Shown here in pieces: positions 1,775-21,624 of a DNA stretch of 38,477 nucleotides. The notes under the pieces are model-generated. The model was not told where the DNA came from. It worked only from the letters and a program-made list of their open reading frames with translations, and did no database searches. The stretch is from a virus: positions 1-38,477 of the IMG/VR virus record IMGVR_UViG_3300030450_000479, one strand, 5' to 3'. How positions within the stretch are numbered: the stretch's first letter is position 1; each line of letters starts with the position of its first letter. The translations under genes were made by a program, and so were the position numbers.

Positions 1775-3484
1775 GTGCAACCTTTACCAGAGAAATTACA
1801 AGACTTTAGATACTTTCTAATTCTTACTTGGAGGCATCTAAATCTCCCAGACCCAACACCAGTACAACTAGAAATAGCTGAATACCTTCAACACGGCCCT
1901 AGAAGAAAAATAATTCAAGCTTTTAGAGGTGTAGGTAAATCTTGGATTACTTCTGCTTATGTAGTTTGGAAACTACGCATGGATCCACAATTAAAGTTCC
2001 TTGTGGTTTCAGCTTCTAAAGATAGAGCAGATAACTTCTCTACTTTCACTATGAGACTAATTAGTGAAATGGATGTATTAGCTCCTTTACGTCCAGATGC
2101 TTCCCAAAGAAACTCTAAAATAAGCTTTGATGTAAGACCTGCTAGAGCTGACCATGCTCCCTCAGTTAAATCTGTAGGTGTATTAGGTCAAATGGCAGGT
2201 TCTAGAGCAGATGAAGTTGTAGCTGATGACGTAGAAGTTCCAAACAACTCCTTCACTCAACCTATGAGAGACAAACTCTCTGAAGCTGTTAAAGAATTTG
2301 ACGCAATCCTTAAACCTAATGGCAAAATTTGTTTCCTAGGTACTCCGCAAACTGAGCAAAGTTTGTACTTAACCCTAGAAGAAAGAGGATATGAAACTTG
2401 CATTTGGCCTGCTAGATATCCAAACCTTAAAAACAACTATGGAGACAGACTTGCTCCTAAAGTTCATAAAAGGCTCCTAGATGAGGTTGTAAGCCCTAAA
2501 GATCCTGTTGATCCAGATAGGTTTAACTCTATAGACCTAATGGAAAGAGAAGCTTCCTACGGGCGTTCTGGCTTTGCTCTCCAGTTTATGCTGGATACTT
2601 CTCTCTCAGATCAAGATAGATATCCTCTTAAACTTTCTGACCTAATAATTTCTTCAATTAACCCTGATCATGCTCCAGAAAAAATAATATGGTCTAACTC
2701 TCCTGAATATTCCTTACAAGATCTTCCTTGCGTAGGTTTTAACGGAGACAGATATTACAGACCTGCACAAGAGTTCGGAGATTGGATCGAATACACAGGC
2801 TCAGTTATGTCTATTGACCCCTCAGGGAAAGGCAAGGACGCTACAGGTTACGCAATTGTCAAGATGTTGAATGGAAACTTATTTGTTTCTGATGCTGGTG
2901 GCCTAACAGGTGGTTATGACGAACCTGTTTTAGAAAAACTTTCTCGTCTTGCTAAAAAACACAACGTTAACCAAATAATTGTTGAAGAAAACTTCGGTGG
3001 TGGAATGTTTGCTGAACTTCTAAAACCCTACTTAATGCGTATTCACCCTTGTGCTGTAGAAAACGTACGAAATAACAAAACCAAAGAGTTCAGAATCATT
3101 GACACCCTTGAACCTGTAATGAACTCTCACCGATTAATCATTGATAGGAAAGTCGTAGAAAAAGACTACAGATCCAATACAAATGAGGCACCAGAACGAA
3201 AGCTAAAACTTCAACTCTTTTATCAGATGAGTCGCATAACACGTCACAAAGGATCCTTAGTCCATGATGACATCCTAGATGCTCTATCTGGTGCTGTCTC
3301 TTACTGGACTGAATACATGTCTGCTGATGAAGACCGCAACATTAAATCTAGACAAGATGAACTTCTTCGTATCCACCTAGATGATTGGGGTGACTCCATG
3401 AATAACACCATCACACAAACAGCTATGGGTATGTCCCTTGACCAAATAAGACAAACTTCTTCCTCCTCTAATTCAATGTTCTAA
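1775..3484 (+). CDS. Terminase large subunit, packaging ATPase and nuclease (T7 gp19-like)
   Basis: This 569-residue protein has a GTG start. The ATPase P-loop is FRGVGKSW with Lys55. The Walker B-like acidic stretch VVADDVE follows at 148-154 (Asp151, Asp152, Glu154), with coupling segment CFLGTPQ at about 186-192. The C-terminal nuclease domain shows MSIDPSGKGKDATGYAI (Asp348), IIVEENFGGGMF (Glu404/405) and a late HDDILDALSGAV acidic motif, as in RNase H-fold terminase nucleases. The length is close to T7 gp19 (586). It pumps DNA into the prohead at the portal and cuts concatemers. In T7-like genomes this gene lies at the right physical end, which agrees with the repeat-rich gap that follows. 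Confidence 0.95.
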   Translation: MQPLPEKLQDFRYFLILTWRHLNLPDPTPVQLEIAEYLQHGPRRKIIQAFRGVGKSWITSAYVVWKLRMDPQLKFLVVSASKDRADNFSTFTMRLISEMDVLAPLRPDASQRNSKISFDVRPARADHAPSVKSVGVLGQMAGSRADEVVADDVEVPNNSFTQPMRDKLSEAVKEFDAILKPNGKICFLGTPQTEQSLYLTLEERGYETCIWPARYPNLKNNYGDRLAPKVHKRLLDEVVSPKDPVDPDRFNSIDLMEREASYGRSGFALQFMLDTSLSDQDRYPLKLSDLIISSINPDHAPEKIIWSNSPEYSLQDLPCVGFNGDRYYRPAQEFGDWIEYTGSVMSIDPSGKGKDATGYAIVKMLNGNLFVSDAGGLTGGYDEPVLEKLSRLAKKHNVNQIIVEENFGGGMFAELLKPYLMRIHPCAVENVRNNKTKEFRIIDTLEPVMNSHRLIIDRKVVEKDYRSNTNEAPERKLKLQLFYQMSRITRHKGSLVHDDILDALSGAVSYWTEYMSADEDRNIKSRQDELLRIHLDDWGDSMNNTITQTAMGMSLDQIRQTSSSSNSMF

Positions 3485-4597: not shown

Positions 4598-4741
4598 ATG
4601 ACTGAACAAGAACTATTCGAGGCGTTTGGTATTCCTTATAGGAGTCCAAGAGAACTAGAAGAAGAGAAGTTAAAACAGTATCGGCAAGCGAAAGCAGCTG
4701 ATGATTGGTTATTTAATGACTCTGATTCTTTACCTGAATAA
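4598..4741 (+). CDS. 47-residue acidic early protein
   Basis: The ATG at 4598 opens a frame ending with TAA at 4739-4741. The product is MTEQELFEAFGIPYRSPREL followed by EEEKLKQYRQAKAADDWLFN and an acidic tail DSDSLPE. It lies between RNA element A and the next gene, which starts two bases after its stop. This tight spacing supports it as real. It is strongly helical and charged, without a membrane segment. Function unknown; small acidic early proteins of T7-like phages often inhibit host enzymes, but nothing here identifies a target. Confidence 0.6.
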   Translation: MTEQELFEAFGIPYRSPRELEEEKLKQYRQAKAADDWLFNDSDSLPE

Positions 4742-5204: not shown

Positions 5205-5387
5205 ATGTATTCAAACATCAGCATGTCTTCTAATAAGGAGACAATCGTTACTAGTGCCCTTGAGATTATTGATAGTCAAGAGGGGCAGATCAAAGCTCAA
5301 ACAGGAACAATTCAAGAGCTACGGGAAGAAAAGCAAGTCTTAGTATCCCTAGCTGGAATTTTATTTATTATCCAATTGCTTTTTTAA
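5205..5387 (+). CDS. 60-residue coiled-coil protein with C-terminal membrane anchor
   Basis: The frame is open from 5100, but the upstream part is RNA element B, so I choose the ATG at 5205 (MYSNISMSSNKET); 5223 is an alternative. Residues 15-45 form a charged helix (EIIDSQEGQIKAQTGTIQEL, REEKQ). The last 16 residues are hydrophobic (LVSLAGILFIIQLLF), a tail anchor in the inner membrane. Small tail-anchored proteins of early regions can act in superinfection exclusion or membrane takeover; this is only a suggestion. The next gene starts four bases after the stop. Confidence 0.6.
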   Translation: MYSNISMSSNKETIVTSALEIIDSQEGQIKAQTGTIQELREEKQVLVSLAGILFIIQLLF

Positions 5388-5390
5388 CTT

Positions 5391-5681
5391 ATGTTGAAGT
5401 GTCCATCCTGTGGAACAAGCAGTCTCTCCTCCTCTGGGGGAGATTCTGTTGTTTTGGAGTCACGCAATAGGGAAGAAACAACTCCTTATTTAAGACGTAG
5501 AAGAAAATGTACCTGTGGCCATCTATTCACTACAAGAGAATATGAAGTTGATGAACTTAAATCAATCTTCAGAGAGAAGAGCAGGAAGGCTAATAACCCA
5601 GAAGTAAAGACGGAAGAATTGGAAGATATTCTTCAAGATCTAAATGCATGGGTTGATCAACTAAACAAGGAGGATTCCTAG
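5391..5681 (+). CDS. NrdR-like zinc-ribbon protein
   Basis: The protein has 96 residues. Its N-terminus closely follows the zinc-ribbon module of NrdR, the bacterial repressor of ribonucleotide reductase genes. Cys4-x2-Cys7 is followed by VVLESRNREE (NrdR has V-I-D-S-R), RRRRKC at 35-40 and LFTTREYE at 45-52 (NrdR: RFTTYE). The second knuckle is Cys40-x-Cys42, one residue shorter than the usual C-x2-C. The ATP-cone domain of NrdR is missing; instead an acidic helical tail follows. Zinc and DNA binding are likely. It could mimic or compete with host NrdR to free nucleotide supply, but no target box was identified. Confidence 0.7.
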   Translation: MLKCPSCGTSSLSSSGGDSVVLESRNREETTPYLRRRRKCTCGHLFTTREYEVDELKSIFREKSRKANNPEVKTEELEDILQDLNAWVDQLNKEDS

Positions 5682-5872
5682 TGCCAATTAACAAAGAAGA
5701 CTTTAATGGCATCTCTAACAAGGTTAAGGAGTGTCTAAACATTCTTACTGAGCTACCAGACAGTGAGAAAAAGCAGTTAGCGATTCTTATGATTGCTCAA
5801 ACTGTGTCTCCTAAGTTTGCTGCTGAGACAGCTAACTTTATGCTTGAGTTAAATGAGTGGGAGAATATTTGA
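5681..5872 (+). CDS. 63-residue helical protein of unknown function
   Basis: The GTG at 5681 overlaps the upstream TAG by one base and has an excellent ribosome site, AAGGAGG, seven bases before it. The product (MPINKEDFNGISNKVKECLN...) is wholly helical in pattern, with amphipathic segments LNILTELPDSEKKQLAILMI and AAETANFMLELNEW. It has no membrane helix of usual length and no known motif. It is embedded in a tight early operon between the zinc-ribbon protein and 5872-6066. No family recognised. Confidence 0.65.
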   Translation: MPINKEDFNGISNKVKECLNILTELPDSEKKQLAILMIAQTVSPKFAAETANFMLELNEWENI

Positions 5873-6066
5873 TGTACTATCATTCTTTTTCTAGTGCTTT
5901 GTCTAAGAAACTATTTGTAATTAAGATCTCTGATTCTAATTACGATCCAAGTGTCAGAACTGAACTAATCACTGCATCTTCTGCAAAGAAAGCAGTTGAA
6001 ATAGCAAGGGATAAATGGCCTGAAGCTGATGGGATGATGGTTGTTGATAGTAGGGAATTAATCTAA
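5872..6066 (+). CDS. 64-residue protein of unknown function
   Basis: I choose the ATG at 5872 (MYYHSFSSALSKKLFVIKIS). It overlaps the preceding stop as TGATG, typical of coupled translation. A longer frame from 5857 would lie inside the previous gene. The pattern suggests a small alpha/beta fold: strand KLFVIKIS, then ELITASSAKKAVEIARDKWP (helix), then GMMVVDSREL (strand). This resembles many small phage proteins in which a helix follows an 'S-x-x-x-A' turn. No specific family recognised. It is the last gene before the integrase. Confidence 0.6.
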   Translation: MYYHSFSSALSKKLFVIKISDSNYDPSVRTELITASSAKKAVEIARDKWPEADGMMVVDSRELI

Positions 6067-6082
6067 GACTAAGGTCTAATTG

Positions 6083-6115
6083 ATTTCTGTTAATAATAAT
6101 AATTATTATTTCTGT
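6083..6115. promoter_or_regulatory. 16-bp AT palindrome flanked by direct repeats, upstream of integrase
   Basis: AATAATAATTATTATT at 6095-6110 is a perfect palindrome. The octamer ATTTCTGT occurs on both sides, at 6083-6090 and 6108-6115. The block lies 21 bases before the integrase start. A perfect palindrome with flanking repeats fits an operator or recombinase arm-type site, but AT-only palindromes also arise by chance in a genome of this composition. Confidence 0.35.
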
Positions 6116-6136
6116 CCACAAAAAAGGAGGACTTCT

Positions 6137-7027
6137 ATGCCCAGAAGCAAAGTCCAAAGCTTGAGTGATTGCCCATGTTTATCTCAGGCTATAAGGACTG
6201 TCTACAACAGACGAAAACGTGGTAAAGCAGATGGTGATAACTGGTTAATAGCTATGGATCATATAAAAAAGATCCTTGGTGACATACCAGTTAATGAAAT
6301 CACTACTCAATCAGTGAATCAAATTGTTGATGCACTCCAGATCAGGCCATATCACAACAGCAATAAGACGATTAATAAAAAGGTTTCGGCCTTAAAAGTC
6401 TTGTTAATGGATATGGAAGATGATGGACATCTAAGCCTGATCAAACTTCCAAGACGATTAAAAGAAGAGAAAGGCCGTATTCATTTTCTTACTGAGGAAA
6501 TGGAAGATGACCTGTTAAATACTTTTCTTTCATGGAAGTTATATGTACACCATGATTTTGTTAAATGCTTAATAGATCTTGGTTGCAGAAGGGGTGAACT
6601 TCTTGGCTTGCAAAAAATGTATATTGATTTTCAATTGAATCAAATTACTTTTGCCAGGAGGAAATGTGATAATCCTGTCAGTGTTCCTATGACTGATACT
6701 GTTCAGCAGATATTACGTCCTTATTATTTAAGGTGTAAGCCTGCTGATAAGTTGTTTCCTTATAGTGAGGATTGGATTACTAAGACGTGGAATAAGGTTA
6801 GGGATTATCTAGGTTTTGCAGAAACAAAATGGTATGTACCGCATATATGCAGGCATACTTGTGCTACGAGGTTGGTTCAGCGTGGAGTTGAACTTGGAAT
6901 TGTTAGGGATTGGCTAGGCCACTCTAATATTTCTATGACCTGTCAGTATGCACACTTTGCACCTAAACAATTACATGGAGCAGTTCATGTACTAAATATA
7001 AAGAAAATAACGTCATCAGTGGCGTAA
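6137..7027 (+). CDS. int: Tyrosine-type integrase
   Basis: This is a site-specific recombinase that would insert phage DNA into the host chromosome and help excise it. I choose the ATG at 6137 (MPRSKVQSLSD, 296 residues), which has an AGGAGG site six bases upstream; the frame is open from 6080. An N-terminal core-binding helical domain (about 14-115) is followed by the catalytic domain. Arg151 lies in GCRRGEL. His236-x-x-Arg239 is in HICRHTCATR, His262 in LGHS, and the nucleophile Tyr271 in TCQYAHF. All key residues are present, so it should be active. In marine cyanopodoviruses such as P-SSP7 the integrase sits ahead of the RNA polymerase and the attachment site lies nearby; no tRNA-like match is visible here. 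Confidence 0.92.
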   Translation: MPRSKVQSLSDCPCLSQAIRTVYNRRKRGKADGDNWLIAMDHIKKILGDIPVNEITTQSVNQIVDALQIRPYHNSNKTINKKVSALKVLLMDMEDDGHLSLIKLPRRLKEEKGRIHFLTEEMEDDLLNTFLSWKLYVHHDFVKCLIDLGCRRGELLGLQKMYIDFQLNQITFARRKCDNPVSVPMTDTVQQILRPYYLRCKPADKLFPYSEDWITKTWNKVRDYLGFAETKWYVPHICRHTCATRLVQRGVELGIVRDWLGHSNISMTCQYAHFAPKQLHGAVHVLNIKKITSSVA

Positions 7028-7127: not shown

Positions 7128-9539
7128 ATGGATCAAGCCCAGATTCAAATCCAAATTGAGAATGAAATGGCGGGAAGAGGTTATGACTCTTACCGTAGAA
7201 AAGTACAAAACAACATAGAAAAAGGTAGAGAGTCAGATAATCCTTATGCCATCACCATGATGAAGGCAGGATTACAACCTTTTGTTGATGAGATTGGTAA
7301 GTTTATTGATAGAGCATGGAGAGCTAAGCCAGGAAGAAAAGCAAGAGCTGCTGTCTTACTTCAAAAGTTTAAAGACATAGATGTTGTTGCTTATATCGCT
7401 TTTAAAGCTGTGTTAGATAATGTTAGTCAACATAAAACTACAGCTGCTGCTGTAGCAGTAAAGATAGGGAACCTTTTAGAAGATGAGGTTAAGTTTTCAG
7501 CTTTTAATCAGGATGATCCTAAACATTTTGAAGCGCTAAAAGATCATATAAGTGATACAAAACACTATGGCTATAGAAGGTCTATGGTGCTTGGTCACAT
7601 GAGAAATAGAGGCTATACATTTGAACCTTGGAAGAAAGAAGACAAGCTTAGAGTAGGTCTGACTCTGATTGACCTGTTAATGAAGTCAGTTGGCTTGGTT
7701 AAGTTAGTGAATAAGGGGTATTTATTTAACAAGACAAAGAGAACTTATCTTGAATTTACTGAAGCTAGCTTGGCTTGGGTAAAGAGACAAAGAGTTAATA
7801 GATTAGCTGCTTATCCATTGTTAATGCCTTGTCTTATACAACCTAAAAACTGGTCTAACTTTGAAGATGGTGGCTTTTATACAGAAAGACTAAGGAATAT
7901 AAAAGCAGTTAAGACAAAAGGAAATGACTATTCAAAAGAGTTTGACGAAGAGAATCCAGAAATCTTTTATCAAGGATTAAATGCTTTACAAGGTACTGAG
8001 TATGGAATCAATGAAGTTGTTATAGAGACTGCTAACTACTGCTGGAATACAAATACAGAAGTTGGTGATCTTATAGACGCTGAACCAATACCTATACCTC
8101 CTAAACCATTTGATATAAATACAAATGATGATGCTAGAAAGAAATGGAGAAGAGAAGCCTCAATCACACATGACACTAACGCACATAACAGAGCTAAGAG
8201 ATTTCAAAATATATGTATTTTAGATACAGCAGAGAAATATAAAGACAAGTCATTTTTTCATGTTCATCAGGCAGATTTTACTGGACGCTTATATTCAGTA
8301 TCTGGGTCATTTAATCCACAGGGAACAGATCTAACAAGAGGACTGCATAAGTTTAAGAAAGGCGCTCCCATTAGAAATGAACAAGATAAGAATTGGCTTT
8401 GTATTGCTGGTGCAAATCATTGGGGTATGACTAAGGCCAGCTATAAGGAAAGAATTGAATGGGCTAATAACGAAGGTATTCATATAGCTAGGAACGTTGC
8501 TGGTAATCCTGAGAGTTATGTGAGTTTATGGAGTAAAGCAGAAGAACCTTGGCAATTCCTTAGTTGGTGTCTAGATATGAATGGTTTAGATGAGCAGGGT
8601 TATGGGTTTGTTAGTCATCATCCAGTCATGCTTGATGGAACCAATAATGGGTATCAACATTTTGCTGCAATGGTATTAGATAAAGATCTAGCTAACTCAG
8701 TTAATTTATGTAAGTCAGATGAACCACAAGATTTATATGAAAACATAAGAACTAATTTATTGTTTAATTTATCAGTTGACCAAGAATTATTAGCACAAGA
8801 TTGGTTTAATCATAGAGAATTTATAACAAGAAAGCTGATAAAGAAACCTATTATGATGATTCCTTATTCAGGTACATCCTTTGGTATTGCAACTAGTTTA
8901 AAGGAATATTTTGTTAAACATAGTATAGAAGTACCGTGGGGTACACAGACATTTAAACATTATCATTTCCTAGCAGAAAAGATCAAAGAATCTGTTGCTA
9001 ATGTATGTCCTTGTTCTACTGATGTAATGTCTTATTTAACAACATTAGCTAGGTGTTTTTCTAAAGAAGAGAAACAGATTGAATGGCTGACACCTTCTAA
9101 TTTTTTAGTCAGACAAAATTATTTAAAAGTAAAACGTAAAAAGATTAAAACCCAGATGGGTCACAGCACTATTAGGTTAACTCTTCAAGAAGATATAGAT
9201 GAGTTAGATAAAAGAAGAACAGTCAGAAGCTTTCCAAGTAACTTCGTTCATAGTCTAGATGCTGCCAATGTTCACTTAGCTTTAGAGAAAGCAAAGAGCA
9301 GGGGAATAGATCAAGTTTGTACGATTCACGATTGTTATGGAGCAGTTGCAGGACAAATAGAAGACTTTGTTACTTGTGCTAAGGAAAGTTTTGTAGAAAT
9401 TTATCAGAATAATGTATTAGATGATCTATATGATCAAGCTTCTACTCAGTTAGATGATCCAAGTAAATTACCAGCACCACTAGAAATGGGAGATTTTGAT
9501 ATAAAAGAAGTTATGTCTGCTCCTTATGTCTTTAGTTAA
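7128..9539 (+). CDS. T7-like single-subunit RNA polymerase
   Basis: The 803-residue enzyme transcribes phage middle and late genes. Catalytic motifs match the T7 family. Motif A is QADFTGRLYS with Asp383 (T7 Asp537), followed by SFNPQGTDLTRGL as in T7. The DGTNNGYQH block follows. Motif B has Lys572 and Tyr580 (KKPIMMIPYSGTSFG), spaced eight residues as in T7 Lys631 and Tyr639. Motif C is IHDCYG with His734 and Asp735 (T7 His811, Asp812). It is shorter than T7 (883), mainly in the N-terminal promoter and RNA-binding region. It is an RNA polymerase, not a DNA polymerase. The ATG has AAGGAG six bases upstream. The C-terminus YVFS ends near the position of the T7 'FA' tail. Confidence 0.95.
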   Translation: MDQAQIQIQIENEMAGRGYDSYRRKVQNNIEKGRESDNPYAITMMKAGLQPFVDEIGKFIDRAWRAKPGRKARAAVLLQKFKDIDVVAYIAFKAVLDNVSQHKTTAAAVAVKIGNLLEDEVKFSAFNQDDPKHFEALKDHISDTKHYGYRRSMVLGHMRNRGYTFEPWKKEDKLRVGLTLIDLLMKSVGLVKLVNKGYLFNKTKRTYLEFTEASLAWVKRQRVNRLAAYPLLMPCLIQPKNWSNFEDGGFYTERLRNIKAVKTKGNDYSKEFDEENPEIFYQGLNALQGTEYGINEVVIETANYCWNTNTEVGDLIDAEPIPIPPKPFDINTNDDARKKWRREASITHDTNAHNRAKRFQNICILDTAEKYKDKSFFHVHQADFTGRLYSVSGSFNPQGTDLTRGLHKFKKGAPIRNEQDKNWLCIAGANHWGMTKASYKERIEWANNEGIHIARNVAGNPESYVSLWSKAEEPWQFLSWCLDMNGLDEQGYGFVSHHPVMLDGTNNGYQHFAAMVLDKDLANSVNLCKSDEPQDLYENIRTNLLFNLSVDQELLAQDWFNHREFITRKLIKKPIMMIPYSGTSFGIATSLKEYFVKHSIEVPWGTQTFKHYHFLAEKIKESVANVCPCSTDVMSYLTTLARCFSKEEKQIEWLTPSNFLVRQNYLKVKRKKIKTQMGHSTIRLTLQEDIDELDKRRTVRSFPSNFVHSLDAANVHLALEKAKSRGIDQVCTIHDCYGAVAGQIEDFVTCAKESFVEIYQNNVLDDLYDQASTQLDDPSKLPAPLEMGDFDIKEVMSAPYVFS

Positions 9540-9560: not shown

Positions 9561-10280
9561 ATGAACAGTAATATGCAATACGCGCATGATAGACCTTCTA
9601 GGCTTTCAAGCGATTACAACAGATCCACTAAACGATTTACACAAATGAATCTCAAATCTGAAATTCTTAACTGCACCACACCACTTTGTAAGTTTCAATT
9701 TGCATGGCTTGTAGAACCAGACACTAAGTTTGATCCTATGGGTGAATGGAGAATTACTTGCTTAATTGATCCAGAAGAATCACAGGAAATTGAACAACAA
9801 TTAACTGGTCTTCTTGATAGATGGAAGGCGCAACTAAAAACTGCTAATCCAAGTAAGAAATTTAAACTTGCTGCTTTGCCCTGGGGCTTTGAAGAAGTAA
9901 CTGATGGAGGAGAAACCAAAGGTTATTTTAAAGTTAGAGCAAAGATGAAGGTAGGTGGTAACAGACCTGACGGTACGCAATGGAAGAACAGACCACCAAC
10001 ACTATTTAATGCTGATGGTTCTGTGATGTCTGAGAGCCAAAAGGTTGTTGTTAACAAATGTGGTCCAGGTACTACAGGACAAGTCAACTTGCGTTGTAGC
10101 GGTTGGGAAACTCCTGCTTTTGGAGTTGGAATAAAGATTCAACCTGAAGCAGTAATGATTAAAAACCATGTTGAATACTCAAGGAGTGCAACTGGATATG
10201 GCTTTCAAACAGAAGAGCCACAGGAGCCAAGCCAAGAGTGCCCAATGCCAGCCTCAACAGTTGCAGCAGACGAGTTCTAA
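9561..10280 (+). CDS. Single-stranded DNA-binding protein (T7 gp2.5-like)
   Basis: This 239-residue protein lies between the RNA polymerase and endonuclease I, as gp2.5 does. An OB-fold core runs from about residue 38 (CKFQFAWLVEPDTKFDPMGE) to 205. It has the family pattern of an early 'P.G.W' block, a KLAALPWGFEEV segment and a late GFGIK-like strand (AFGVGIKIQPEAVM). The C-terminus ends ASTVAADEF: an acidic tail with terminal Phe, the feature by which gp2.5 contacts replication partners, though less acidic than in T7. AAAGGAG lies 13 bases before the start. An ATG at 9645 (MNLKSEIL) is an alternative. With no phage DNA polymerase, its partner may be a host polymerase. Confidence 0.85.
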   Translation: MNSNMQYAHDRPSRLSSDYNRSTKRFTQMNLKSEILNCTTPLCKFQFAWLVEPDTKFDPMGEWRITCLIDPEESQEIEQQLTGLLDRWKAQLKTANPSKKFKLAALPWGFEEVTDGGETKGYFKVRAKMKVGGNRPDGTQWKNRPPTLFNADGSVMSESQKVVVNKCGPGTTGQVNLRCSGWETPAFGVGIKIQPEAVMIKNHVEYSRSATGYGFQTEEPQEPSQECPMPASTVAADEF

Positions 10281-10635
10281 ACAAAAGTACAGAAGTAAAT
10301 TCGAAGCTGGAATTGCCGCTACCCTATACAAAAAGAAAGTTGCCTTTAGTTATGAATCCCTTGAGCTGGAGTACACCCTCAGTTGCTGTTACAAGCCTGA
10401 TTTTATCCTTAGCAACGGGGTCATTATTGAGACTAAAGGCTTCCTCTCAAAAGAGGACAGAAGAAAAATGGTTGCGGTTAAGGAGGCAAATCCCAGTTTA
10501 GATATACGTTTCTGCTTTCAGAACGCAAAGACAAAACTAAGTCGTGGCAAAAAGAGAAGCCTTTCTTATGGTCAATGGGCTACTAAGAATGGGTTTCTCT
10601 GGTGTCACAAAACAATTCCTGCTGATTGGTACTAA
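10198..10635 (+). CDS. Endonuclease I, Holliday-junction resolvase (T7 gp3-like)
   Basis: I choose the ATG at 10198 (MAFKQKSHRS, 145 residues), with AAGGAG about 11 bases before it; the frame is open from 10168. It overlaps the SSB gene by 83 bases. Active-site residues of the T7 enzyme are all present: Glu36 in YRSKFEAG, Glu53 in FSYESLE, Asp68 in YKPDFIL, Glu78 and Lys80 in IIETKGF. Downstream, LDIRFCFQNAKTKLSRGKK and SYGQWATKNGF also follow T7. It resolves branched DNA during recombination and packaging and helps degrade host DNA. The first 28 or so residues are Gln/Ser-rich and overlap the SSB coding tail, so a later non-ATG start is possible. Confidence 0.9.
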   Translation: MAFKQKSHRSQAKSAQCQPQQLQQTSSKQKYRSKFEAGIAATLYKKKVAFSYESLELEYTLSCCYKPDFILSNGVIIETKGFLSKEDRRKMVAVKEANPSLDIRFCFQNAKTKLSRGKKRSLSYGQWATKNGFLWCHKTIPADWY

Positions 10636-10757
10636 TGGACAACAAACAACGCATCGAGTATGCGGAAAAAAGAATTAAAGAACTCCAAGATCTAATCGAA
10701 CATTGGAAAGCTAATGACAGAAAACAACAAGTACGTCAAGAAAAGCCCCTGTCCTAA
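10635..10757 (+). CDS. 40-residue charged helical protein
   Basis: The ATG at 10635 overlaps the endonuclease stop (TAATG), and the frame ends at TAA 10755-10757, 44 bases inside the primase-helicase gene. The product begins MDNKQRIEYAEKRIKELQDL and continues as one charged helix. The stop-start overlap at the front argues that it is translated. Short helical proteins in this position of T7-like phages are common and unassigned. It could also serve only to couple translation of the primase-helicase. Confidence 0.5.
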   Translation: MDNKQRIEYAEKRIKELQDLIEHWKANDRKQQVRQEKPLS

Positions 10758-12333
10758 CTGCAACAGTAAAGACAATCTTGCTGTGTATTCAGACGGTCAT
10801 GCTTTTTGCTTTGGCTGTAGTTACAGAGTGCCTGCTCCTACTGAAACAAAACACAAACGCAAATCTTATTACTCATCTACAAAAGTGACTTCACCATTAA
10901 TAAAATTCGTCACACCAAAAGAACTTCCTAAACGTGGTATTACAGAAGAAACTGCCAAGTTTTTTAACTATGGAATAGCTGATTACAATGGCTCTCCTGT
11001 ACAAGTAGCTACCTATGAAGATCAACTAGGCAGACAATCAGCACAACATATAAGGTTTAAAGATAAACGTTTTATATGGGTTGGTGACTGTAAAAACGTA
11101 CAACTATGGGGTCAAAGACTTTGGAGAAACCACGGTAACTATGGAAATGTTTTTGCTGTAGTTACTGAAGGTGAAATTGATGCAATGAGTATTAGTCAGG
11201 TCCAAGGTAACAAGTTTCCTGTAGTATCTCTGCCATCAGGTGCTCAGTCTGCAAATAAGTATCTAGCAGCAAATTTAAAATGGTTAGCACAGTTCTCCAG
11301 AATTGTTCTTTGTTTTGACAGTGACGACCCTGGCATGGTTGCTGCCGAAAAAGCAATTGAAATATTACCTGCTGGTAAAGCAGCTATATGTCGACTCCCA
11401 AGAAAGGATGCTAATGAAATGCTCCTCGCAGGAGAGGGGGAAGAACTTAAGAACTTACTTTGGAGAGCAACTCCCTGCAGACCAGATTCAATACTTAATG
11501 CAAGTGACCTATGGGAAGAACTAACTAAAGAAGGAGCAAGTTCTGTTTGTCCTTTTCCTTATCCAATTCTGGATCAATTCACGAGGGGTTTTCGTAAATC
11601 CCAAATGATTACTATTTGTGCTGGGTCAGGAACAGGGAAATCAAGTTTGTGTAGAGAGTTAGCCCATCATTTTTTAAAGAATAAATTGACTGTTGGATAC
11701 ATTGCTTTAGAAGAGTCAGTCCAAAGAACTATGCAGGGCATATTGGGAATAGAACTTAATAAGCCGCTGCATTTAGAAGAGCAGATTGAAGAAGTTGAAG
11801 GATTAAAATCAGCTTTTGATAAATTATTTGGTACAGAAAAATTATTCCTTTATGACCATTTCGGTTCAATGGAACCAGATAGGTTAATAGAACAGATTCA
11901 ATACATGGCTACAGCAGAAGGAGTTGATGTAGTTATTCTTGACCATCTAACTATTGTCATTTCTGGATTAGCTGATGTAGATGAGAGAAGAGCTATTGAT
12001 ATTACTTGTACAAAACTTAGACAGGTAGTTGAAAGTACTGGTGTCGCTATCATTCTTGTCTCTCATTTAAGAAGACCACAAGGTGTATCACATGAGCAGG
12101 GCTCACAGGTTTCCACCTCAGATTTAAGAGGAAGTTCAGCAATTCTTCAGTTATCAGATTTATGTATTTCTGCTGAAAGAAATCAACAGGGAGATGCTGC
12201 TGAAAGATCTGAAATGCAACTAAGGATTTTAAAGAACAGACATACTGGATCTACTGGACCAATAGATAAGCTTCTGTATGACGAAAATACTGGTCGTCTT
12301 TCTATTCCTATGTCCACCTATTTCGGTTCTTAA
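10714..12333 (+). CDS. Primase-helicase (T7 gp4-like)
   Basis: This 539-residue bifunctional replication protein has an N-terminal zinc ribbon: Cys13-x2-Cys16 and Cys32-x2-Cys35 (CPNCNSKDN, HAFCFGC). The Toprim primase domain shows VVTEGEIDAMSI near residue 150 and LCFDSDDPG near 200. The RecA-like helicase has Walker A CAGSGTGKSS (about 301-311) and VDVVILDHLTIVISG as Walker B (about 408-422). ILVSHLRRP and a STSDLRGSSAI motif follow, as in T7 gp4. It is close to full length (T7: 566). It unwinds DNA and makes primers for lagging-strand synthesis. In T7 it binds the phage polymerase gp5; here the gp5 gene is absent, so it would have to work with a host enzyme. Confidence 0.95.
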   Translation: MTENNKYVKKSPCPNCNSKDNLAVYSDGHAFCFGCSYRVPAPTETKHKRKSYYSSTKVTSPLIKFVTPKELPKRGITEETAKFFNYGIADYNGSPVQVATYEDQLGRQSAQHIRFKDKRFIWVGDCKNVQLWGQRLWRNHGNYGNVFAVVTEGEIDAMSISQVQGNKFPVVSLPSGAQSANKYLAANLKWLAQFSRIVLCFDSDDPGMVAAEKAIEILPAGKAAICRLPRKDANEMLLAGEGEELKNLLWRATPCRPDSILNASDLWEELTKEGASSVCPFPYPILDQFTRGFRKSQMITICAGSGTGKSSLCRELAHHFLKNKLTVGYIALEESVQRTMQGILGIELNKPLHLEEQIEEVEGLKSAFDKLFGTEKLFLYDHFGSMEPDRLIEQIQYMATAEGVDVVILDHLTIVISGLADVDERRAIDITCTKLRQVVESTGVAIILVSHLRRPQGVSHEQGSQVSTSDLRGSSAILQLSDLCISAERNQQGDAAERSEMQLRILKNRHTGSTGPIDKLLYDENTGRLSIPMSTYFGS

Positions 12334-12335
12334 CC

Positions 12336-13067
12336 ATGACCTTATTAATTGATTCTGACTGGTTGATTTATTCTTCTTGTTGCAGCTGTGAGCAAGACAT
12401 CAAGTGGGATAAAAACCTACATACTCTTCATTGTGACGAAAGAGATATACATGAAATGATTGATAGTCGAATTGAGTATTACCAAACCATTGCTGATGAT
12501 AAGACTGATGTGGTTATGTGTTTCACTGAGTATCCAACATTTAGACACCAAATATTCTCTGACTACAAAGCTAATAGAAAGAACAAACGTAAACCATTAG
12601 CTTTATACGCAATGGTTGAACAGATAAAACAAAGATATGAGTCAGTTTCTTATACAGGTTTAGAAGGTGATGATGTCTTAGGTCTTCTTGCTACATCAAA
12701 AAGATATTCAAATCCTATTGTTGTTTCTCCTGATAAAGATATGAAAACTGTTCCTTGTACTCTTATTGCTAGTGATGATATGGAACTAATAACTAAGAAG
12801 AAAGCTGATAGACATTGGATGATTCAATCTTTAACTGGAGACAGTACAGATAATTTTAAAGGGTTGATTGGTTGTGGTCCTGTTACCGCAGATAAGATTT
12901 TAGGTGATGCTAAAACTTTGCCTGACATGTGGGACAAAGTAGTAGAAGCATACGAAAAAAAGAAACAAACTTTCGCTGATGCAATCCTTACTGCTCGTCT
13001 TTCTCGCATTTTACGAGAAGGAGATTTTAACTACAAAACTAAGGAGGTAGAACTATGGACCCCATAG
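12336..13067 (+). CDS. 5'-3' exonuclease (T7 gp6-like, FEN family)
   Basis: This 243-residue flap-endonuclease-type nuclease starts two bases after the helicase stop. Metal-binding acidic residues are in order: MTLLIDSDWLIY (Asp6, Asp8), SDYKANRK (arch region), YTGLEGDDVLGLLA (Glu and two Asp near 110-112), VVSPDKDMKT (about 131). A helix-hairpin-helix DNA-binding segment follows, LTGDSTDNFKGLIGCGPVTADKIL. It removes RNA primers and degrades host DNA. It is somewhat shorter than T7 gp6 (about 300). In T7 the DNA polymerase gene lies between gp4 and gp6; here the two are adjacent. Confidence 0.9.
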   Translation: MTLLIDSDWLIYSSCCSCEQDIKWDKNLHTLHCDERDIHEMIDSRIEYYQTIADDKTDVVMCFTEYPTFRHQIFSDYKANRKNKRKPLALYAMVEQIKQRYESVSYTGLEGDDVLGLLATSKRYSNPIVVSPDKDMKTVPCTLIASDDMELITKKKADRHWMIQSLTGDSTDNFKGLIGCGPVTADKILGDAKTLPDMWDKVVEAYEKKKQTFADAILTARLSRILREGDFNYKTKEVELWTP

Positions 13068-13691: not shown

Positions 13692-15275
13692 ATGGAACTT
13701 GCTTTGAATCAAACAGCTGTTGCTAGATATGAGCAACTAGAAAGTAATCGTTCTACTTTTTTAAGGAGAGCTAGAGATGCTTCAAAGTTAACTCTTCCAG
13801 CATTAATACCAGAATCAACTACTGGTAATGCAGCTAAATTAAAAACTCCTTACCAAGCAGTAGGAGCTAGAGGATGTAATTCCTTAGCAAGTAAATTGTT
13901 AATTGCTTTACTTCCTCCTTCTACCCCCTTCTTCAAGTTAAGTATTGATAGTCTTGCTTTAATGCAAGAAGGACAAGAAGGATTAGAGACTGAAATAGAT
14001 AAAGGTTTAAGGGTTATAGAAAATGCCCTAATGAATGAGATAGAAGTTAGTAATGACAGGGTTGCAATGTTTGAAGCACTCAAGCATTTAATTGTTGGTG
14101 GTAATGTTCTTCTCTATCTGACTGATAAAGGATTAAAGGTCTATCACTTCGATAGGTATGTTTGTAAACGTGATGATGTAGGAAATATTTTAGAGATCAT
14201 TACAAAGGAAACTATTCATCCTCAAGCTTTACCAGCAGAATTTTTAGAGAAATTAAAAACAAAACAAAACTATGACGCTGAAGATTTTGATGAAGATTTA
14301 GATATCTATACCTGCATAAAAAGATATGGTGATGAGTTCACATGGCATCAAGAATGTCAAGGAGAGAGAATCCCAGGTACTGACGGTAAATCTAAAATTG
14401 ATGTCTCACCTTGGATTTGTTTACGTTGGACACGGATTGATGGAGAAGATTATGGAAGAGGATATGTAGAAGAATATCAAGGAGATTTGATTAGTCTTGA
14501 AGCATTGATGCAAGCCATCATTGAAGGTGCAGCTGCTAGTGCTAAGACCTTATTCCTTGTTAATCCTAATGGTGTTACTAGAGCAGCAACTTTAGCTAAA
14601 GCTCCTAATGGTGCAATACGAGAAGGATCTGCTAATGATGTTTCTGTTCTGCAAGTAAATAAAGGAGCAGATTTCCAAGTATCTTTCTCTGCTATTCAAC
14701 GTATAGAAGGAAGACTTGAATATGCTTTCTTAATGGCTAGGTCAGTACAAAGAGATGCAGAAAGAGTGACTGCTGCCGAAGTGTCAATGATGGCAAATGA
14801 ATTAGAAAATAGTTTGGGTGGAATATATTCAATACTGACTCAAGAGTTTCAGCTTCCTTATTTAAAGAGAAGGATGCACATGCTTACTCGTAGTGGTAAG
14901 GCTCCTAAATTACCAGAAAAGATAGTCAAACCTAAGATAGTAACTGGTCTTCAAGGACTTGGTAGAGGTAACGATAGAAACAAACTCATTGAATTTATCG
15001 GTACAGTTTCGCAAGCATTAGGTCCAGATATTATGAGGCAATACATGAATGTGGATGAAGCAATTAAACGTTTAGCTAATTCAATTGGTATAGATACAGC
15101 TAATCTGGTTAAGACCCAGGAACAAATTCAACAAGAGCTACAAGCACAACAACAACAACAGCTGATTCAACATCTTGGACCAGCTGCTTTAGGGTCTCCT
15201 TTAATGGATCCTAAAAACAATGCCCAAGCACAACAACTAACGGAGCAAACTGATGCCAACCAAGAAACCAGCTGA
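13692..15275 (+). CDS. Portal protein, head-tail connector (T7 gp8-like)
   Basis: The 527-residue protein is close to T7 gp8 (536). The N-terminus (MELALNQTAVARYEQLESNR...) runs into SLASKLLIALLPPSTPFFKL, a hallmark block of the podovirus head-to-tail joining protein. It is followed by the central wing and stem segments (WICLRWTRIDGEDYGRGYVEEY) and the late AERVTAAEVSMMANELENSLGGIYS. The C-terminus is Gln-rich. It forms the twelve-subunit ring through which the terminase packages DNA and to which the tail attaches. It starts the structural block and overlaps the following small gene by 23 bases. Confidence 0.93.
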   Translation: MELALNQTAVARYEQLESNRSTFLRRARDASKLTLPALIPESTTGNAAKLKTPYQAVGARGCNSLASKLLIALLPPSTPFFKLSIDSLALMQEGQEGLETEIDKGLRVIENALMNEIEVSNDRVAMFEALKHLIVGGNVLLYLTDKGLKVYHFDRYVCKRDDVGNILEIITKETIHPQALPAEFLEKLKTKQNYDAEDFDEDLDIYTCIKRYGDEFTWHQECQGERIPGTDGKSKIDVSPWICLRWTRIDGEDYGRGYVEEYQGDLISLEALMQAIIEGAAASAKTLFLVNPNGVTRAATLAKAPNGAIREGSANDVSVLQVNKGADFQVSFSAIQRIEGRLEYAFLMARSVQRDAERVTAAEVSMMANELENSLGGIYSILTQEFQLPYLKRRMHMLTRSGKAPKLPEKIVKPKIVTGLQGLGRGNDRNKLIEFIGTVSQALGPDIMRQYMNVDEAIKRLANSIGIDTANLVKTQEQIQQELQAQQQQQLIQHLGPAALGSPLMDPKNNAQAQQLTEQTDANQETS

Positions 15276-16424: not shown

Positions 16425-17429
16425 ATGGCTAACGCCACAGTTTCACGCCTTGGTCTGGTTAACAATACTGGTACTTCCTATGATGCCTTGTTTCTCAAGG
16501 TTTTCAGTGGAGAAGTTCTGACTGCGTTCTCTGAGAACAATGTGTTCAACGAGAGAATGCAAACTGTAAGAACTATTTCTTCAGGTAAGTCAGCACAGTT
16601 TCCAGTCCTCGGTACAGCTACAGCGGCCTACCACACAGTAGGAACTCCTCTAGTTGGTGCTAACCAAATCAAGGCAAACGAAAAGATTATCTCCATAGAT
16701 GATCTACTTATCTCACAAGCTTTTGTGAGCAACCTTGATGAGCTTAAAAACCATTACGATGTCAGAGCTACATACGCTTCTGAACTAGGTAAGGCTTTAG
16801 CTCAGCGATACGACAAAAACGTTGCCAAGGTAATTGCTAATGCTTCAAGAGCTTCAGCAACTATCTCTGGTGGTAGTGGTGGTACTGTTCTAACTCTTGC
16901 CAACGGTAATACTGCATCTGCAAACGTTACTGGTGATGAGTTAGCAGGAGCTATCTATGATATCGCTCAAGCATTTGACGAGCGAGACATTCCTCCTACA
17001 GACAGATTTGTTGTACTTCCTCCAGCGGAATATTACAAATTACCTGAGTCAGCTACTCGTACTATCGATACTGATTTCAACCCAGGTGGTAATGGTTCAT
17101 TTGCTTCAGGTCGTGTTCAGCAGATTGCAGGTATGCCTGTAATTATGAGCAACAACATTTCACAGGAGAACAAACCTCCAGGTGGAGCTGATGCTAATGA
17201 ATTAGGTGGATCTAACAACACCTATGCTGGTGACGATAGTAAGACTATTGGTTTAGTCTTCCATAAGTCAGCAGTTGGTACAGTAAAACTCATGGACATG
17301 ACTACTGAAATCAGTGGAAGTGACTATGGAATTATGTATCAAGGTACGTTGATGGTTGCGAAATATGCTCTTGGTCATGGAATCCTAAGACCAGAAGCAG
17401 CAGCTACAATTAAGTTGTCTGCATCTTAA
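16425..17429 (+). CDS. Major capsid protein (T7 gp10-like)
   Basis: The 334-residue protein, close to T7 gp10A (345), carries family features. The N-terminal arm (MANATVSRLGLVNNTGTSYD) leads to LFLKVFSGEVLTAFSENNVF and the SGKSAQFPVLGTATAAYHTV block. The spine segment DLLISQAFVSNLDELKNHYDV follows, then the RQ..G.PVIMSNNI-like strand and a C-terminal ATLMVAKYALGHGILRPEAA-type end. It builds the HK97-fold icosahedral shell. Many Gly and small residues fit high expression. It is flanked by a structured leader and by a strong terminator at 17438, as expected for the most abundant late product. Confidence 0.95.
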   Translation: MANATVSRLGLVNNTGTSYDALFLKVFSGEVLTAFSENNVFNERMQTVRTISSGKSAQFPVLGTATAAYHTVGTPLVGANQIKANEKIISIDDLLISQAFVSNLDELKNHYDVRATYASELGKALAQRYDKNVAKVIANASRASATISGGSGGTVLTLANGNTASANVTGDELAGAIYDIAQAFDERDIPPTDRFVVLPPAEYYKLPESATRTIDTDFNPGGNGSFASGRVQQIAGMPVIMSNNISQENKPPGGADANELGGSNNTYAGDDSKTIGLVFHKSAVGTVKLMDMTTEISGSDYGIMYQGTLMVAKYALGHGILRPEAAATIKLSAS

Positions 17430-18100: not shown

Positions 18101-20572
18101 ATGGGTGTTATCTCCAGAGCTATTCCTACTCTTTTAAGAGGGGTATCGCAAACAGCTGACTCAACTAAACAAGCTGATCATGCTGATATACAAGAAAATG
18201 CTACAAGTAGTCCTACTCAAGGATTAAAGAAAAGATCAGGTGTTCAGTATCTAGCTAATTTACAGTCTTCTACGATAGGTAATGTCCATATACGAACGAT
18301 TAATAGAGATACAAATGAAAGATATATAGCTGTATTTGGTGATGAAACAATTAAGGTATATGACATTAATGGAGTAGAGAAAACTGTTACTACACCTGAT
18401 GGATTGACATACTTAGATTCATCTAATCCAAGAGCAGATTTTAGAACAGTTACTATTGCTGATTATACATTTGTTGTTAATACAACTAAGACAGTAGCAA
18501 TGTCTACTGCTACAAGTTCAGGAACAGATGTAAATGCAATAGTCTTTGTTAATCAAGTTACAGATAATACTGAATATATTGTTGATGTAAATGGTACTGT
18601 TGCTATACATAATTCATCAAGTGACAACCCTTTAAGCACAACAACAGTAGCTACTAAATTAAAAAATAAATTATTAGGAGCTAGTGGAGAAACTCCTAGT
18701 AGTGGTAGTGCTTTATCAGGTTTTACTATTGAACAGAATGGACCTGTTTTACATATAAGTAAGGATGATGATTCTAACTTTACTATTGATGTAAGTGACA
18801 CTCAAGGTAATACACAACTTACATTAGTAAAAAATAGTATTCAAAGATTTACTGATCTTCCTACAGTTGCACCTAATAATTTTGTAGTAGAAGTTAAAGG
18901 AGATAATGCTACTAATTTTGATAATTACTACGTCAAATTTAAAACTAATAACGGCGGTACTTTTGAAGAAGGTCAATGGGAAGAGACTTTAAAGGCTGGT
19001 ATTACTTATAAGTTTGACGATGCAACAATGCCTCATGTCTTGATTAGGAAGGCAGATGGTAATTTTATTTTTGCTAAGGCTGATGGTGGTACTTATGCAG
19101 TCAGTGGTACAACTTATACCTTGCCTGTATGGGGAGAAAGAACTGTTGGTGATTTAGATAGTGCTCCTAATCCATCTTTTGTAGGAGCAAAAATAAATAA
19201 CGTTTTATTCTTTAGGAATAGATTAGGCTTCTTAGCTGATGATGATGTAATACTTTCCAGAGTTTCAGAGTTCTTTAATTTCTTTCCTGAAACTGCTACT
19301 GCTGTTATTGATAGTGACCCTATAGATGTAGGTGCATCACATACAAAGGTATCAATATTAAAACATGCAGTAACAATGGGAGAGCAGTTAATCTTGTTCT
19401 CTGATCAAACACAATTTGTACTAAGTGCTTCTGATGATGCGTTAACACCTAAGACAGCAAACATACTTGTAGCTACAGAGTTTGAAAATAGTAGTGATGC
19501 TGCTCCTGTAGGTGCTGGAAGTAGTATTTATTATTTAACTAAGAAAGGTTCTTTTGCTGGTATTAGAGAATATATAACACAAGCAGATGTAGCTATTAAA
19601 GATGCTAGTGATATTACTATTCATATCCCTAGATACATTCCATCTAATGTTTTTAAATTAGCAGTTTCTACAAATGAAGACGTTCTAGTGTTACTAGGGA
19701 CAGACAACCCTAATAAATTATATATTAATCGTTGGTTATATGGTGAGTCATTTAAGAAGGTACTTAATTCTTGGTCTACTTTTACTTTAAATCCAGCTAA
19801 GTCAATAAGAAATATAGATTTTATTGGTACTGATTTATATATGGTAATTGAAGAAGCAAATAATACAACATTAGAGAAGTTACCTTTTGAACCAGACTAT
19901 AAAGAAGCTAATACTGAATTTGAATATCACTTAGACCATAAAGCTACAGAAGCTCATTCTAATGTTTCAGTTACCTATAGCTCTGGTACTTCTACTTTTA
20001 CTCTTCCTTATCGTTTAAGAGGAGCAATGAAAATAATAGGAAGATATTTAGCTAATGGAGAAACAAGTACTTATGTAGATGAACAAGGTAATACAAAGAC
20101 TTTAAAACCTGGACAAGTTATACAAACTACTAACGCTACTAATGGTTCTACTACAACTGTTACTGCTACTGGAGATTATAGAAATAGTAAATTTATTGTT
20201 GGTGAACCTTATGAAATGCAATACAGGTTCTCAAAACAACGGATTACAGAAGATCCAGGTAAAGGGGAAATCATAGGTGGAAGACTACAACTACATCATT
20301 TCTATTTAAAGTATGAGTCTTCTGGATTCTTCAGAGTAGAAGTCACACCAGAGAATAGAGATACCAGTGTTCATAAATTTACGGGACGTTTATTAGGTTC
20401 ATCTTCTAGTGCTATTGGTGCAGTTAATTTAGAGACAGGTACATTTAGATTTCCAATAATGAGTAGAGCAGACAGAGTAGATATAGATGTAAAAAATGAC
20501 ACTTACCTGCCTACTAAATTGTCTAGTGCAGAGTTTGAGGCTATGTTCCACATGAGGTCTAGAAGAATTTAA
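18101..20572 (+). CDS. Tail tubular protein B, nozzle (T7 gp12-like)
   Basis: This 823-residue protein (T7 gp12: 794) begins MGVISRAIPTLLRGVSQTAD. It continues with QENATSSPTQGLKKRSGVQY, the standard N-terminus of this family. Large beta-rich domains follow, with the conserved FFRNRLGFLADDDVILSRVS and late RLQLHHFYLKYESSGFFRVE blocks. It forms the tail nozzle through which DNA leaves and where fibres attach. Its stop overlaps the start of the next gene as TAATG. Confidence 0.94.
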   Translation: MGVISRAIPTLLRGVSQTADSTKQADHADIQENATSSPTQGLKKRSGVQYLANLQSSTIGNVHIRTINRDTNERYIAVFGDETIKVYDINGVEKTVTTPDGLTYLDSSNPRADFRTVTIADYTFVVNTTKTVAMSTATSSGTDVNAIVFVNQVTDNTEYIVDVNGTVAIHNSSSDNPLSTTTVATKLKNKLLGASGETPSSGSALSGFTIEQNGPVLHISKDDDSNFTIDVSDTQGNTQLTLVKNSIQRFTDLPTVAPNNFVVEVKGDNATNFDNYYVKFKTNNGGTFEEGQWEETLKAGITYKFDDATMPHVLIRKADGNFIFAKADGGTYAVSGTTYTLPVWGERTVGDLDSAPNPSFVGAKINNVLFFRNRLGFLADDDVILSRVSEFFNFFPETATAVIDSDPIDVGASHTKVSILKHAVTMGEQLILFSDQTQFVLSASDDALTPKTANILVATEFENSSDAAPVGAGSSIYYLTKKGSFAGIREYITQADVAIKDASDITIHIPRYIPSNVFKLAVSTNEDVLVLLGTDNPNKLYINRWLYGESFKKVLNSWSTFTLNPAKSIRNIDFIGTDLYMVIEEANNTTLEKLPFEPDYKEANTEFEYHLDHKATEAHSNVSVTYSSGTSTFTLPYRLRGAMKIIGRYLANGETSTYVDEQGNTKTLKPGQVIQTTNATNGSTTTVTATGDYRNSKFIVGEPYEMQYRFSKQRITEDPGKGEIIGGRLQLHHFYLKYESSGFFRVEVTPENRDTSVHKFTGRLLGSSSSAIGAVNLETGTFRFPIMSRADRVDIDVKNDTYLPTKLSSAEFEAMFHMRSRRI

Positions 20573-21024: not shown

Positions 21025-21624
21025 ATGTGTGTTTTTGCCGTCCCTGCTGCTGGTGCCGCTGCTGGAGCAGGTGCTGGTATTTTTGGTTTAGGTGCTGGTG
21101 CTTCTAACTTGTTTCTTGCACAGCTAGGTTTGACTGCTGTGACATCAGTCATGCAGATGCAGCAAGCCAATAGAATGGCACAGTATCAAGGACAAGCAGC
21201 AGTAAGAGCAGCTGAATCAGCTAATAAAGCTTTTGCTATACAACAAGAAGGTTTAGCTTCTAGGCTCAGAGAAGAGAGGCAGAAGTCAGCACAAGAAAGA
21301 CAGGAAGTTGGAAAGAAAAGATTACAAGCAGAAGGAGCAATAAGAGCTAGTGAAAGAACAGGTTTGACTATTGATTTATTACTAGCTGATGCAGATAGAC
21401 AAGCAGCTAATTGGCAAGATGCTTTAACTCAAACAATGCAGTCAGCCACACAACAATATGGAAGAGATGTCAAAGGACTAGAAGCACAAAGAGACGATAG
21501 AACTAATCAAGCAATAGATACTAGAAATCAAGCAATGGCTAATCAAAGAAGTTTATTAGATGTCATTGCACAAACAGCCAGTACTGGCCTTTCCAGCTAT
21601 AGCAACCTTTATCAGAAAGCATAA
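21025..21624 (+). CDS. Internal virion protein B (T7 gp14-like)
   Basis: This 199-residue protein is close to T7 gp14 (196). A Gly/Ala-rich hydrophobic N-terminus (VPAAGAAAGAGAGIFGLGAG) leads into a long helical region (LTAVTSVMQMQQANRMAQYQ, then Arg/Gln/Glu-rich repeats). In T7, gp14 inserts in the outer membrane during DNA ejection and forms a pore with gp15 and gp16. The hydrophobic start, Ala/Gln helices and position support the same role. The start directly follows the gp13-like stop, and the stop overlaps the gp15-like start. Confidence 0.85.
   Translation: MCVFAVPAAGAAAGAGAGIFGLGAGASNLFLAQLGLTAVTSVMQMQQANRMAQYQGQAAVRAAESANKAFAIQQEGLASRLREERQKSAQERQEVGKKRLQAEGAIRASERTGLTIDLLLADADRQAANWQDALTQTMQSATQQYGRDVKGLEAQRDDRTNQAIDTRNQAMANQRSLLDVIAQTASTGLSSYSNLYQKA

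Follow-up and report, generated by a model that had tools for sequence, protein, structure and literature searches.

The window analysed here is the whole of IMG/VR virus record IMGVR_UViG_3300030450_000479 (G000 in our set), 38,477 bases long and classed as linear by IMG/VR. It carries the genes of a T7-type replication module, encoding a single-stranded DNA-binding protein (SSB), an endonuclease I, a gp4-type primase-helicase and a 5'-3' exonuclease, and it lacks a DNA polymerase gene. We consider it quite likely that the window represents a polymerase-less T7-like phage which would replicate with these four proteins of its own, would leave the extension of primers to a host DNA polymerase, and would hold the four genes as a cassette shared with other such phages.

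By gene content the window can probably be assigned to the T7-like (Autographiviridae) phages of the polymerase-less cyanopodovirus group MPP-C, nearest to P-SCSP2. The absence of a polymerase is as such already known, being the main result of Cai et al. 2022 on MPP-C cyanopodoviruses, isolates of which grow on Prochlorococcus MED4 (PMC9860041; here and below, papers are cited from the accessible portions of their text). The window adds another phage to that group, as the original prediction had supposed (83.5% identity to P-SCSP2 in the capsid protein and 74.2% in the terminase large subunit, TerL). The loss of the gp4 tail, the cassette pattern and the width of the group beyond MPP-C were not found in the accessible portions of PMC9860041 or in a literature search that reached few subscription papers.

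Replication genes and absence of a DNA polymerase

All four replication genes lie on the plus strand and, as predicted, are intact according to Pfam and PHROGs matches. The gp2.5-like SSB (9561-10280; phrog_112, 8.3e-17), the first gene of the cassette, ends in the acidic tail ...AADEF, and its end is overlapped by the T7-type endonuclease I (10168-10635; PF05367, 5.1e-32). The gp4-type primase-helicase (10714-12333; PF03796, PF13155 and PF21268; phrog_239, 5.3e-170) has the primase zinc ribbon, Toprim and DnaB_C helicase domains in Pfam, and the T7 gp6-like exonuclease (12336-13067; phrog_107, 5.7e-56) closes the cassette. Only two bases (12334-12335) separate the gp4 stop at 12333 from the exonuclease start at 12336, exactly the coordinates claimed for them, and polymerase-bearing relatives have a DNA polymerase and small open reading frames (ORFs) at this place. 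The accompanying claim that T7 gp5 lies exactly here is only approximately right, since T7 genes 4.3, 4.5 and 4.7 sit between gp4 and gp5.

The family A polymerase profile PF00476 has no match in the window record; 10 of 14 control genomes match it. A Pfam scan of 40 window ORFs, which left out gp12 (18101-20572) and a few ORFs shorter than 80 aa, found no significant DNA polymerase family among them, in agreement with the claim that family A motifs do not occur elsewhere. The sole polymerase-named match, to DNA_pol_B_thumb (E 0.02; 15.2 bits against a cut-off of 25), covers 18 residues of a 47-aa ORF (4598-4741) that is far too small for a polymerase. The 803-aa polymerase beginning at 7128 (7128-9539, plus strand), which forms the upstream edge of the cassette, is indeed a single-subunit T7-type RNA polymerase (RNAP; PF00940, 9.1e-82).

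The ORFs at both window ends lie on the minus strand and run off the record. In G024 (38934 bp), a close relative, they align with a spacing of 85 bp, as seen at both G024 ends; G024 itself, whose own ends overlap by 854 bp at 90.6%, is a full circle without PF00476. If its layout follows that of G024, the window appears to be a permuted, nearly whole genome with about 85 bp missing. Because its ends are so close in G024, a polymerase gene outside the window, a possibility that the original prediction had raised, is unlikely. The resulting size (38477 bp plus about 85 bp) is slightly above the published MPP-C range of 37.3-37.9 kb, which comes from 18 isolates and is not a strict definition. 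The MPP-C architecture is present, with exonuclease, primase/helicase, capsid, scaffold, portal, tail tubes, TerL and terminase small subunit recognised by Pfam, and gp12 by identity to relatives. None of psbA, hli, mazG, rnr, talC and thyX was found among the Pfam matches of the 40 window ORFs, and a phmmer search over the fetched loci likewise found no rnr or thyX in the window.

Distribution of the polymerase-less lineage

The best 80 gp4 relatives of the window in IMG/VR all (80/80) lack a polymerase in the sequence available, and the downstream exonuclease was found in 73 of them. Wider scans gave 305 gp4 loci, mostly partial genomes, with 257 distinct gp4s: 157 polymerase-bearing, 79 polymerase-less (exonuclease present, polymerase absent) and 21 of unknown status, which were excluded from the counts. 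The polymerase-bearing sample was gathered by gp4 similarity, which if anything favours polymerase-bearing phages in gp4. The gap between the gp4 and exonuclease ORFs does not exceed 854 nt in the 79 polymerase-less loci (20 nt or less in 55), and ranges from about 1690 nt upward in 95 polymerase-bearing loci (sampled quantiles). Of 44 whole records, 34 have no PF00476 match; the remaining 10 are polymerase-bearing controls, all of which match.

Phylogenetic trees were built from 84 rows thinned from 107, G003 being left out for TerL and capsid because its match was broken. In both the gp4 and the exonuclease tree a branch with support 100 separates the 24 polymerase-less rows from the others. 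The placement of terminase and RNAP, suggested in the original prediction, puts the window with P-SCSP2, as do the gp4, exonuclease and capsid trees. In RNAP and capsid, P-SCSP1 belongs to another lineage than the window, and MPP-C itself looks composite on these trees.

The polymerase-less members include phages of 58-63% G+C beside marine ones of 34-45%, and the group is therefore wider than MPP-C; the high-G+C members suggest that the strategy extends beyond the phages of low-GC Prochlorococcus. In some of them a ThyX-matching gene stands between gp4 and the exonuclease, at the place of the polymerase (8350-8979 in L064; also in L046, L054, L061, L062, L067 and L075), and in one relative, locus L018, a gene that reads as DNA methyltransferase-like (1911-2621) is inserted between gp4 and the exonuclease. 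The window has 36.1% G+C and is uncultured, its nearest isolates infect Prochlorococcus, and its host is probably among the ocean cyanobacteria. Neither a tRNA nor an Rfam match was found in it as a host clue, and a scan of genome contigs returned 11 loci, mostly on contigs of metagenome-assembled genomes (two from 'bacterium TMED161', 57-58%), with no confident host name.

C-terminal tails of the primase-helicase and SSB

In T7, the acidic C-terminal tail of gp4 binds basic patches of gp5, and without it processivity falls from 17 kb to about 5 kb (PMC12593628, PMC5997990); the terminal Phe of the tail also matters (PMC12230644). We compared the gp4 and SSB tails of the two groups, as the original prediction had proposed. 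Among the polymerase-bearing gp4s, 132 of 157 end in Phe, 121 of these with Asp or Glu within the last five residues, and in 118 of 157 the last 15 residues carry a net charge of -3 or below. In contrast, only two of the 79 polymerase-less gp4s end in Phe, and none combines it with a nearby acidic residue or reaches that charge. A [YFV]FG motif is found near the C-terminal end in 58 of the 79, in the form ...PMSxYFG in 45. The window protein ends in ...TGRLSIPMSTYFGS, without the acidic ...DF tail. The catalytic residues of gp4 are invariant among 30 polymerase-less rows, and the helicase has thus lost its only known polymerase-docking element and kept its catalytic residues.

Apart from a few exceptions, the SSB tails of both groups are acidic and end in F. 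The window SSB shares the ...[DE]F tail type of its polymerase-bearing relatives, and the earlier description of this tail as weakly acidic has to be withdrawn. Set against the T7 replisome, the window lacks the gp5 family A polymerase and the acidic Phe-ended gp4 tail, and retains the acidic Phe-ended tail of a gp2.5-type SSB. The gp4 result locates the lost coupling and narrows it to a short segment, the 15 C-terminal residues of the protein.

Proposed replication cassette on two backbones

Identities were compared gene by gene within and between lineage A (n=5: the window, P-SCSP2, G024, G001 and G004), lineage B (n=11: P-SCSP1u and ten contigs) and polymerase-bearing phages (P, n=7), with fewer rows for gp12, portal and DUF3310. 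For the four cassette genes the A-B identity lies 14-20 points over the A-P identity, the bootstrap confidence intervals of the difference being 14.7 to 22.7 for SSB, 9.3 to 19.3 for endonuclease I, 15.0 to 20.0 for gp4 and 16.1 to 23.6 for the exonuclease. The corresponding intervals are -4.8 to -1.5 for RNAP, -3.8 to 1.9 for TerL (1775-3484, plus strand; PF22530, 9.3e-39), -3.3 to 5.1 for the major capsid protein (16425-17429, plus strand; PF21703, 4.2e-70), -3.1 to 6.6 for gp11 and -1.4 to 2.8 for gp12. For portal the interval is 1.7 to 7.6 and for scaffold 0.4 to 7.7, a slight excess against the mean that disappears against the best polymerase-bearing phage. The RNAP, capsid and terminase genes of polymerase-less phages thus represent two backbones, mutually no closer than to polymerase-bearing phages; in particular, the window RNAP is 42% identical to that of P-SCSP2 and 25% to that of P-SCSP1u, the latter value being below those for several polymerase-bearing phages. 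The boundaries of the cassette fall between RNAP and SSB upstream, and downstream between the exonuclease and the portal gene (13692-15275, plus strand; PF12236, 8.9e-84), the first large gene beyond this edge.

In a second comparison, the identity of the window to lineage B was subtracted from its identity to P-SCSP2. The difference is strongly positive in the backbone (RNAP +14 to +21; portal +20 to +28; scaffold +5 to +16; capsid +31 to +41; gp11 +24 to +39; gp12 +26 to +34; TerL +16 to +25), negative for SSB (-22.2 to -9.6) and gp4 (-11.2 to -3.1), and spans zero for endonuclease I (-8 to +7) and the exonuclease (-4 to +5). The window gp4 and SSB are 64% and 45% identical to lineage B, versus 57% and 30% to P-SCSP2. 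Because these two proteins are nearer to lineage B than to the backbone sister of the window, it is likely, on the evidence of the identities, that the SSB-endonuclease I-gp4-exonuclease block has been exchanged among polymerase-less backbones. The absence of a polymerase noted in the original prediction is real and common to the whole surrounding lineage; an older loss followed by cassette exchange reads better than a clean loss in this phage.

If the cassette does move between backbones, dependence on a foreign polymerase would be an exchangeable trait and not a clade marker, MPP-C as drawn would mix two structural lineages, and the choice of marker genes by which these phages are counted would have to be reconsidered. 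A bolder version, which we offer tentatively and hold to be doubtful, is that the cassette acts as a transferable 'host-polymerase' unit, in which the new C-terminal motif of gp4 docks the host replicase and a single transfer could convert a self-sufficient T7-like phage.

Several points weigh against the reading of a shared cassette and host polymerase use. In approximately unbiased tests, monophyly of the polymerase-less phages in RNAP (p 0.393) and of lineage B in gp4 (p 0.361) and in the exonuclease (p 0.225) is not rejected; in the TerL tree a short branch (98/98) separates the polymerase-less rows from the rest; and the P-SCSP2 gp4 is a long branch (0.79). All of them would suit a history in which cassette transfer never happened: from one polymerase-less ancestor, the four replication genes would have gone through a burst of change on the stem followed by a slow-down, the backbone would have kept diverging, and a faster P-SCSP2 cassette could account for part of the identity conflict. 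This vertical history seems rather doubtful to us. The backbones of the window and P-SCSP2 separated recently (TerL 75%, capsid 85%), yet their gp4 and SSB are less alike than those of the window and lineage B, and a slow-down would raise, not lower, gp4 conservation inside lineage A. The tail comparison has exceptions of its own: 36 of the 157 polymerase-bearing gp4s fail the strict test and 39 have a net charge above -3. Since the polymerase-less rows form one clade in the gp4 and exonuclease trees, the tail loss counts as one event on one branch, not as a repeated correlation. An AlphaFold model of gp4 gives the tail low confidence (61 in the last block) and was not used further. Finally, it is by inference that we choose the copying polymerase.

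Source of the polymerase activity

In the proposed scheme the primase-helicase would open the fork and lay RNA primers, which a host DNA polymerase would extend; a helicase without the acidic Phe-ended tail would then couple to the host enzyme by another surface, or loosely. The original prediction held that the phage must recruit a host polymerase. The absence underlying this statement is confirmed, and recruitment itself is what we infer, so that 'must' is too strong. Our analysis somewhat favours the host Pol III holoenzyme over host Pol I, because Pol III is the processive host replicase and the helicase domain of gp4 is DnaB-like (PF03796). A search of 16 early and replication ORFs for beta-clamp-binding motifs turned up no more than two loose matches (QLAIL in 5681-5872 and QLRIL in gp4), too little to draw on. 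Host Pol I as the replicase, a family A enzyme taking the place of the lost family A phage enzyme, appears less likely. It belongs to the same polymerase family as T7 gp5 and is among three hypotheses put forward by Cai et al. for replication of T7-like phages without their own polymerase (PMC9860041), and in plants the T7-gp4-type primase-helicase Twinkle is coupled to organellar PolI enzymes via a re-charged C-terminal extension (PMC12230644), an example of such a helicase adapted to another polymerase. However, the chief role of Pol I is in repair (PMC9860041), and a helicase that has shed its gp5-docking tail gives no hint of a gp5-like partner.

Explanations that need no host replicase fare worse. 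A phage-encoded DNA polymerase too divergent for recognition, left as a possibility for MPP-C by Cai et al. (PMC9860041), could be sought in four unassigned late ORFs: 34517-35341 (274 aa), 36327-37163 (278 aa), 37096-37818 (240 aa) and 24035-28633 (1532 aa). We looked for it there, as the original prediction had advised, and found no match of weight to Pfam, NCBIfam or, by tblastn, to phages; moreover, these ORFs sit among tail and lysis genes, the early and replication regions have no unassigned ORF longer than 120 aa, and the gp4 docking tail is gone across the clade, which makes such an enzyme highly improbable. The RNAP is the sole nucleic acid polymerase besides the primase, and a serine beside the selector tyrosine (T7 position 640) occurs in 20 of 24 rows, in both groups of polymerase-less RNAPs. 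It was rejected as a stand-in DNA polymerase, an idea with next to nothing in its favour: all 24 rows, that of the window included, retain the tyrosine that corresponds to T7 Y639, and the number of shared rare columns, three, is unremarkable within the range of 0-10 for other clade pairs. Just as little credit can be given to an assembly gap that would have removed the polymerase from this contig only. The linear classification of the record would allow it, but the window ends adjoin within 85 bp in the circular G024, and the gp4-exonuclease junction recurs in 79 distinct loci and in isolates.

Other genes of the window

A 96-aa NrdR-type zinc ribbon protein without the ATP-cone is encoded at 5391-5681 (plus strand; PF22811, 1.3e-6). 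Using a profile built from polymerase-less members, NrdR-N-like zinc ribbons were detected in 28 of 79 polymerase-less versus 0 of 157 polymerase-bearing loci, many of them partial, and in 13 of 19 versus 0 of 11 where the early region is present; in the high-G+C group the gene often stands right after gp4, in the place of the polymerase. Ribonucleotide reductase genes occur in 34 of 157 polymerase-bearing versus 0 of 79 polymerase-less loci, again mostly partial genomes. One guess is that the NrdR-like protein could act on host nucleotide-reductase control. Since the loci are mostly partial and the zinc-ribbon profile comes from polymerase-less members, both patterns are leads only.

A tyrosine integrase is encoded at 6080-7027, and the matching stretch is missing in G024, where the flanks (window positions 6066 and 7093) adjoin. 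The internal virion protein at the position of T7 gp15 (21624-24032) has a C-terminal lysozyme-like SLT_3 domain. Beside the tail-fibre genes, the protein encoded at 33567-34538 consists of six repeats of about 49 residues with a TDFGDLT-like motif and has no Pfam match.

Comparison with known systems

Prochlorococcus phage P-SCSP2 (OM416780) shares with the window the gene order RNAP-SSB-endonuclease I-gp4-exonuclease without a polymerase, a small low-GC genome, close capsid (83.5-85%) and TerL (74.2-75%) proteins, and a similar NrdR-like zinc ribbon (29 bits); it differs in its more distant gp4, SSB and RNAP (57%, 30% and 42.5%, respectively). An unannotated endonuclease I-like frame overlaps the end of its SSB gene (5221-5622), as in the window, which corrects the report of no recognisable endonuclease in P-SCSP2 (PMC9860041, accessible text). 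The Prochlorococcus phages P-SCSP1a-u (OM416763-79), also of MPP-C, are likewise polymerase-less, with a tailless gp4 (60% identity) and a similar exonuclease (60%), but differ in backbone (RNAP 25%, TerL 54%, capsid 46%) and have the terminase on the other strand. The uncultured phage MedDCM-OCT-S08-C159 (GU943031, genus Jalkavirus), although only a 10.3 kb fragment, has the exonuclease directly after gp4 as well (gp4 58.6%, capsid 79.6%). Roseobacter phage CRP-125 and marine pelagiphages (Autographiviridae) have the T7-like order and related structural proteins (TerL about 60%, capsid about 50-55%); unlike the window, they carry a DNA polymerase between gp4 and the exonuclease and an acidic ...DF tail on gp4.

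A functional parallel to the proposed scheme is provided by Bacillus phage SPP1, which combines its own helicase, SSB and exonuclease with the host replicase: its helicase G40P recruits DnaG and DnaX of the host, whose replicase copies the phage (PMC5615212). SPP1 is no relative of the window and, unlike it, has an origin-binding protein and a helicase loader and uses the host primase.

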